Assembly (NCBI RefSeq): GCF_019856455.1
Contig: NZ_CP082205.1
Location: forward strand, 2,232,001 to 2,296,000
DNA length: 64,000 nucleotides
Origin: Streptococcus suis
Lineage (GTDB): Bacteria; Bacillota; Bacilli; Lactobacillales; Streptococcaceae
Direction of reading: 5' to 3'
Below the pieces are notes generated by a model. The model was not told the origin of the DNA. It worked only from the letters and a program-made list of their open reading frames with translations, and did no database searches. Of the stretch, positions 59,825 to 60,325 are shown one piece after another. The first letter of the stretch is position 1, and every line of letters begins with the position of its first letter. The translations under genes were made by a program, and so were the position numbers.

Positions 59825-60325
59825 CTTTGTTCCTTTCATCTTTTGTTTATCAGGAATACACAGGTTTTAGCCCGTGTTCAATTCCTTTCGTAGTTTACTT
59901 GATTAGAAATCACAGAAGTCACTTTTCAAAACCCTCGCTGACGCTCGAGTTCAAATCTGAAAACTCTCTGTTCCTTTCTTTTTCGTATTTTTTCAGAATA
60001 TCCTGCGTTTAGCACGCAGTCAATTCCTTTCATCTTTTGTTTATCAGGAATGCACAGGTTTCAGCCCGTGTTCAGTTCCTTTCGTATTTTTCAGAACATC
60101 CTGCATTTAACACGCAGTCAATTCCTTTCATCTTTTGTTTATCAGGAATGCACAGGTTTCAGCCCGTGTTCAATCCCTTTCGTAGTTTACTTGATTGGAA
60201 GACAAAGAATTAACTTTTCAAACCCCTCGCTGACGCTCGAGTTCAAATCTGAAAACTCTCTGTTCCTTTCTTTTTCCTAGTTTTCAGAACATCCTGCGCA
60301 TCACACGCATTCAATTCCTTTTGGA
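59825..60325 (-). repeat. Tandem hairpin array between rseP and proS
   Basis: Six modules (59852-59888, 59996-60030, 60046-60082, 60094-60128, 60144-60180, 60287-60321) each read AAAGGAATTGA or a close variant on the minus strand, then a stem-loop, then an ATTCC- or ATTC-like closure. Two stem types alternate: ACACGGG/CCTGTG with loop CTAAAA, and CTGCGT/ACGCAG with loop GCTAA. The short period is 98 bases, and two units carry an extra insert of about 96 bases with CTCGAGCGTCAGCGAG. It lies in the presumed rseP-proS transcript. Confidence 0.85.

Follow-up and report, generated by a model that had tools for sequence, protein, structure and literature searches.

The closest described counterparts of the arrangement reported here come from phage T4 and Escherichia coli. 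In T4 genes 38 and 25, as set out in PMC3014915, a structure between the Shine-Dalgarno sequence and the AUG bridges an over-long spacing, shortening it from 22 to 5 nt and from 27 to 11 nt, respectively. In E. coli thrS, an aminoacyl-tRNA synthetase gene, a hairpin interrupts the ribosome-binding region by parting an upstream single-stranded, U-rich stretch from the Shine-Dalgarno sequence, and ThrRS acts as repressor (PMC3858243 and PMC3936740). Streptococci carry small, interspersed, modular, hairpin-forming repeats of the BOX type, which in S. suis include RepSU1 as their smallest form (Croucher and colleagues, PMC3049150); the available part of that description states no placement between Shine-Dalgarno and AUG. 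Enterobacterial RU/ERIC-type repeats, which are intergenic and about 103 to 168 bp long (PMC2759123), are similar in kind when compared by description, the level at which we considered them.

The locus analyzed here lies in a 64,000-nt stretch of the Streptococcus suis genome (positions 2232001-2296000 of the 2.56-Mb contig NZ_CP082205.1), referred to as the window. Between the co-directional genes rseP and proS, both on the minus strand, we find a tandem array of hairpin units at 59704-60322 (Table 1), which for that reason is expected to be in the mRNA. The array consists of eight shortened modules of types a, b, and c and one full-length hairpin of about 106 nt, type D; on the minus strand, the units run b-c-a-b-a-b-c-a-D (lower case, shortened; capital, full length). 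Each unit starts with AAAGG or GAAAGG. The shortened units measure 46 to 89 nt, while the last unit is the 134-nt stretch from the Shine-Dalgarno sequence GAAAGGA to the proS ATG that contains the full element. Direct repeats of 98 nt (three copies) and 163 nt (two copies) run through the array.

Table 1. Features in and around the hairpin array upstream of proS (window coordinates)
Feature	Position	Strand	Basis
proS (proline--tRNA ligase)	57847..59706	-	NCBIfam PRK09194, 793.8 bits, above cut-off
proS start codon ATG	59706-59704	-	coordinates checked
Full-length hairpin element, type D, TTGAACTCGGTC...GACCTCCGTATCTT, 3 nt 5' of proS ATG	59710..59813	-	covariance model R1
AAAGGAGG, second Shine-Dalgarno-like stretch of type D, 5' of element	59821..59828	-	sequence
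Shine-Dalgarno GAAAGGA, far (5') side of full element	59831..59837	-	sequence
Module type A, shortened	59838..59889	-	
Module type C, shortened	59890..59978	-	fold z -0.97
Module type B, shortened	59979..60031	-	fold z -5.18
Module type A, shortened	60032..60083	-	fold z -3.59
Module type B, shortened, with G-U change ACGCAG to ATGCAG	60084..60129	-	fold z -4.18
Module type A, shortened	60130..60181	-	
Module type C, shortened	60182..60270	-	
Module type B, shortened, first after rseP	60271..60322	-	
rseP (RIP metalloprotease), co-directional, upstream of array	60334..61593	-	NCBIfam TIGR00054, 246.3 bits, above cut-off

A first-pass annotation of the window had described six modules with two exchangeable stems before proS. 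The array is real and in the place given, but it is larger: the six modules correspond to the three a and three b units of a nine-unit array with four types, and the coordinates missed the main object, the full-length element in the last unit (59704-59837), which reaches to 3 nt from the proS ATG. The 98-nt period is made up of one a unit (52 nt) plus one b unit (46 nt), with the longer spacing due to the c units; the wobble change described within one stem is present (Table 1). Folding of the minus-strand RNA upheld the proposed hairpins in part, since one a and two b modules outscored shuffled sequences and one c module did not (z values in Table 1). The last unit folded with a z of -2.45 against shuffles; there, GGAGGTC of the second Shine-Dalgarno-like stretch can pair with GACCTCC at the 3' end of the element as a predicted outer stem.

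When the array was used as a query, relatives of its last unit were found in other streptococci. The type D element itself scores 101 bits (E = 6.1e-22) with covariance model R1 in its own genome, which holds 34 matches, and 193/197 Streptococcus genomes contain a match (4 do not), with filters stricter than in the own-genome search and no more than 20 candidates scored per genome. The suggestion that the modules form a proliferating repeat is thus borne out by relatives across this genome and other streptococci. In an alignment of 19 full copies, the consensus fold has 27 pairs, 18 of which show double-sided changes, so that stem exchange, first proposed within the array, is real at the scale of the genus. 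Stems such as GGGC/GCCC, GTGC/GCAC, GCCC/GGGC, GAGC/GCTC, and GGTC/GACC replace one another freely in this alignment, and the unpaired or foot stretches TTGAA, AGA, TCCTA, and TATC are invariant or almost so. This contrast between variable stems and constant unpaired bases brought an attachment site of the integron attC type under consideration as a candidate reading. Most copies begin with TTGAAC and end with GTATC[TA]T. Orthologous elements have a median identity of 94 to 98%, versus 60 to 79% at third codon positions. Copies were sampled by best model score, and we therefore do not read this difference as proving selection.

Several placements of the family were recorded along the way. A divergent copy follows tRNA-Ala within the 16S-23S spacer of the inspected operon (positions 2430-2547 of locus L029, equal to 19920-20037 of the own genome). 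Matches of equal score occur at own-genome positions 196288, 1946250, and 2086334, with four others at ~23090 and its equivalents; these are presumably at other rRNA operons because their distances are identical to those in the inspected operon. Altogether, 8/34 own-genome copies are at rRNA operons, and other copies are antisense. One genome (G074; loci L189, L207, L231, and L317-L329) carries tandem arrays of mixed element types, which suggests a recent expansion within one species.

The expectation that no named element would match also held. An Rfam 15 search of the window returned no family above the gathering cut-off, with a best subthreshold match at the array of E = 0.23, and a search of 15 loci matched only 16S, 23S, and tRNA in L029, leaving the element unmatched. 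The literature that we searched, with most subscription papers and all bioRxiv preprints outside its scope, contains no description of the family or of repeats between Shine-Dalgarno and AUG, and the available parts of PMC5217627 and PMC11109978 give no account of either.

BOX repeats were compared most closely. Their ends are ATACTC..GAGTAT, versus TTGAAC..GTATCTT in the element, and the element arrays vary in the number and order of side-by-side copies, not of inner units as in the modular build of BOX. We prepared boxA and boxC profiles from 15 BOX sequences at 11 loci, mostly from mitis-group species, with one from S. suis and one from S. macacae. A 21-nt core of the element (..GCGTCAAGCTTCCTAATTT..) resembles boxC: the best E value over this core was 0.15 (best shuffled, 0.1), and at E below 10, boxC matched 41/219 elements versus 1/219 shuffled sequences. 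The boxA profile retrieved 2 elements versus 4 shuffled sequences, the reverse test of the element 3' half against BOX gave a best E of 0.55, and a BOX primer sequence had no exact match in the loci searched. By terminal repeats and by both profiles, membership in BOX/RepSU1 is rejected. The own genome does contain 45 ATACTC/GAGTAT end motifs with at most one mismatch (none in a reversed control), and we infer that copies with these ends are RepSU1. A whole BOX-type element of this unrelated repeat family, 104 bp long with ATACTC..GAGTAT ends, lies at window positions 51341-51444 on the minus strand. In G074, element arrays are framed in places by BOX-like ends (by eye), and the two families thus meet there.

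A mobilizing role for an IS200/IS605-type Y1 transposase was not supported, as 10 of the 26 element-bearing genomes searched had no PF01797 match; among element-free genomes, a broken match was present in 1/4. The window holds such a Y1 match in two adjoining pieces at 29248-29594 on the plus strand (own genome 2261248-2261499 and 2261490-2261594). It also holds long 231-bp tandem repeats at 6001-8907, perhaps part of a repetitive surface protein gene.

The placement of the element relative to genes was surveyed in the loci from our searches plus 80 further places from the genus-wide matches listed. Running the model over these 164 loci gave 161 + 91 matches, of which 241 were aligned and 219 distinct copies with flanks were kept; the sample was drawn from the best-scoring matches and includes many orthologues. 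A possible sense start lay within 40 nt of 132/219 copies, some of these starts being surely false (such as the GTG found 16 nt away in the rpsG set). With a predicted start defined as an open frame of 60 or more codons, 103/219 copies end 0 to 6 nt 5' of a start codon (start-type copies) and 116/219 do not. In the own genome, 14 of 25 inspected copies (of 34) end 2 to 6 nt 5' of a start. A Shine-Dalgarno motif occurs within 70 nt 5' of the element in 100/102 start-type copies, and in none of the 102 does one occur in the 18 nt before the start. The motif AAAGG was found within 70 nt in 99/102 start-type copies versus 27/115 other copies, in 86/1040 random flank 70-mers, and in 0/33 copies in antisense orientation no more than 5 nt from a stop codon (any motif, 1/33). 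Because it is near-constant in start-type copies and absent from antisense-stop copies, AAAGG belongs to the gene and not to the element. With the Shine-Dalgarno sequence on the 5' side and none near the start, the element thus sits inside the ribosome-binding site of its host genes.

The start-type copies fall into 28 N-terminal groups, or about 18 genes after merging by likeness, 15 of which have an NCBIfam name: alaS, proS, thrS, a pdhC-type E2, cshA, uvrA, parC, prfA, dnaJ, carA, carB, fpg, deoD, purB, and ybeY. Three more genes lack a firm name; several translations are partial, and the E2, uvrA, and ybeY matches are below curated cut-off. At dnaJ, where genome choice favored those having few elements, 25/28 leaders could be parsed. 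Six genomes (G004, G005, G012, G085, G157, and G201) have an ordinary Shine-Dalgarno sequence 7 to 8 nt before the ATG, and G126 has a near one before TTG (by eye). In the other 18 leaders, the Shine-Dalgarno-like AAAGG is more distant, and the ATG is preceded by another structure or by an element, whose type varies; in G011, another structure fills the same gap (by eye). A recurrent antisense placement was also seen, 4 nt after the rpsG stop codon in many species (28 copies in L012, L013, L016, and others; gene checked in one). Most antisense copies carry this rpsG flank, and the TATCTT end of the element thus faces gene edges in both orientations. Taken together, the anatomy, distribution, and site preference of the family are well supported.

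We propose, with a probability of roughly 0.6, that the hairpin bridges the Shine-Dalgarno sequence to the AUG and so creates a split ribosome-binding site. In the mRNA, the element would form one long irregular hairpin, often with a small extra arm, whose foot adjoins both signals. The 109 to 159 nt between the signals would be folded away, and the ribosome would meet an effective spacing of roughly 5 to 16 nt. At proS, where the intact copy separates GAAAGGA from the AUG, the ribosome would likewise bridge the hairpin; the earlier idea that the array may regulate proS is thereby sharpened to an intact copy between these two signals, with a regulatory role that is putative. A distant Shine-Dalgarno motif with a structure between it and the start, as in T4 genes 38 and 25, is what the motif counts and the 18/27 double-sided pairs describe. 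Whereas the T4 structures are short and gene specific (PMC3014915), the streptococcal ones belong to a ~106-nt repeat family spanning 109 to 159 nt at about 18 genes, and unlike the thrS hairpin, they lie between Shine-Dalgarno and AUG.

Constrained folding, with the Shine-Dalgarno sequence and AUG held open, is consistent with such bridging. Among 67 distinct start-type leaders, in which the actual distance is 109 to 159 nt, 91% had a predicted effective spacing of 5 to 16 nt, versus 56% of 1,340 block-shuffled controls, and the standard deviation was 4.0 nt versus 8.7 nt. Against a plain shuffle, the median was 12 nt in both sets and only the spread differed; the leaders were much more stable than these shuffles (-41 versus -24 kcal/mol). 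Two of 23 gene groups had longer medians of 17 and 22 nt. When the window's copy was folded without constraint, part of GAAAGGA paired with the UCUU end of the element, a predicted pairing that could be inhibitory instead.

Comparison of proS loci bears on how the array arose. Across nine S. suis-type loci (the window, G021, and seven S. suis records, with ProS 98 to 99% identical), the arrays comprise 4 to 9 units, and unit number and order differ among all nine. The gene-proximal unit is full length in 9/9 loci, whether of type A (n = 1), B (n = 3), C (n = 3), or D (n = 2), and it alone is full: the other 44/44 units have the shortened form (13 A, 19 B, 7 C, 4 D, and 1 unclassified). Each type occurs in both the full and the shortened state, as if each had formerly been the intact copy. 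By eye, shortened B units resemble full B units that have lost the interior but still have the foot stem and part of the TATCTT end. Short copies would then be decayed full ones: upstream copies, which carry a Shine-Dalgarno sequence of their own, would no longer be needed and would have lost their interior. Elements would arrive by insertion, or swap by recombination, as DNA. The nine differing arrays could record this element turnover.

Beyond S. suis, S. varani (L105) has a single full element at proS. By the model, the remaining Streptococcus loci have none there (71 of 80 loci searched); L145 has three elsewhere. A near Shine-Dalgarno sequence was found in 46/66 Streptococcus proS leaders (by motif in 45 and by eye in L113). 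Each of the remaining 20 carries AAAGG or AAGGA further 5', the distance in L098 and L134 being measured to a motif match inside a hairpin. In those 20, the gap is filled by the element (S. suis and S. varani) or by other sequence, mostly structured; L145 (-11.1 kcal/mol), L146 (-15.4 kcal/mol), and, weakly, L139 (-4.9 kcal/mol) have other structures in this gap. A different long structure lies between AAAGGA and the proS ATG in S. equinus, S. vicugnae, S. alactolyticus, and S. gallolyticus (L131-L133, L141, and L143), and its outer stem CGGTC/GACCG (L131-L133) is replaced by GGCGATTTT/AAAATCGCC in L141 (by eye). Hairpin-bridged initiation may thus be wider than this element family.

The first-pass annotation had taken the conserved frame with swapped stems as selection on RNA structure. 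This was not supported, as G-U is barely commoner than A-C in the element stems, unlike in true RNA of the same genus. A stem under selection as RNA tolerates G-U. In RNase P RNA of 30 streptococci (MAFFT and RNAalifold), we counted 2,529 Watson-Crick, 340 G-U, and 4 A-C cells, and in five tRNAs, 100, 9, and 0. Two model-fitted alignments of the element (111 + 78 distinct rows) gave 4,849 Watson-Crick, 53 G-T, and 84 A-C cells. When two badly paired columns were omitted, start-type copies had 1,928 Watson-Crick, 8 G-T, and 7 A-C cells and other copies had 2,467, 42, and 28, for 50 G-U versus 35 A-C in both classes; a smaller MAFFT/RNAalifold alignment had 2 G-U and 5 A-C cells. Because the stems hardly separate G-U from A-C, their pairing evolves like that of a DNA palindrome. 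Like DNA palindromes, the stems may be kept by a process at the DNA level, or copied from perfect parents and then left to drift. Bridging would require just a stable hairpin.

This stem evolution without RNA-type wobble is what a purely selfish repeat would show, one that lands near gene edges, either at random or through targeting of its own, survives there, and has no part in initiation; proS would be translated without needing the far Shine-Dalgarno sequence. The family is also dispersed and multicopy with tandem expansions, and the 33 sampled antisense copies next to stop codons (within 5 nt) sit where a ribosome-binding role is impossible. Such a repeat, however, would make the far Shine-Dalgarno sequence useless, and it is retained in 100/102 start-type copies; moreover, the same gap holds other structures in other species. 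The gene-proximal copy alone being full in 9/9 proS loci likewise argues against it, although a rule of newest copy last would equally account for that pattern. On balance, we regard pure selfishness as unlikely.

Less likely again is a cis-regulatory RNA in which the hairpin is a switch that senses a protein, tRNA, temperature, or a metabolite and gates the start codon accordingly. The hosts include three aminoacyl-tRNA synthetase genes, many copies have an upstream arm that competes with the foot helix for the GAAC strand (by eye), pairing between the 3' end and the Shine-Dalgarno sequence is possible in the window's copy, and E. coli thrS sets a precedent as an autoregulated split site (PMC3858243). 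The hosts nonetheless share no common pathway, including as they do DNA repair, topoisomerase, chaperone, release factor, pyrimidine, and purine genes; G-U is not preferred; and no Rfam family corresponds to the element.

We consider it more doubtful still that the TATCTT or TATCAT end is a -10 box from which leaderless mRNAs start at or beside the AUG, so that the hairpin is never in the mRNA. This end terminates 101/103 start-type copies, 0 to 6 nt before the start, and S. pneumoniae has 70 leaderless operons, given as 9% of all its operons in PMC6212727. Copies away from starts share the same end, however, the distance to the start is shorter than expected of a -10 box, we see no constant -35 element, and a far Shine-Dalgarno sequence would not persist under leaderless initiation. 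That the modules encode short MKGIDCVLNAGYSEK-like peptides can practically be dismissed: small frames are readable in type B modules, but module length differences within and between strains are not divisible by three, and the unit lengths of 46, 47, 52, 53, and 89 nt break any single frame, in keeping with the initial view that the array is probably noncoding.

The proS array is best explained as the local trace of a family of ~106-nt hairpin repeats that is interspersed in genomes throughout the genus. A broader reading, tentative and somewhat short of even odds, is that this is a mobile hairpin DNA family at home between Shine-Dalgarno and start. Bridging would make its copies harmless or even useful in the ribosome-binding sites of essential genes, initiation across a hairpin would have become general among streptococci, and the proS array would reflect successive arrivals, with selection keeping the newest, gene-proximal copy intact. 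To our knowledge, initiation across a hairpin has otherwise been described only in individual genes of phage and E. coli, and we know of no preference for a place inside ribosome-binding sites among RU/ERIC-type repeats. The count of G-U versus A-C used above offers a simple general test of whether the stems of a repeat are maintained at the RNA or the DNA level. If the proposed bridging is true, about a dozen housekeeping genes in this S. suis genome, with comparable sets in other streptococci, would begin translation by spanning a ~100-nt hairpin. Such genes would be misjudged by gene finders and by models of translation rate that count on a nearby Shine-Dalgarno sequence, and the family would be a repeat adapted to an exact place within ribosome-binding sites.
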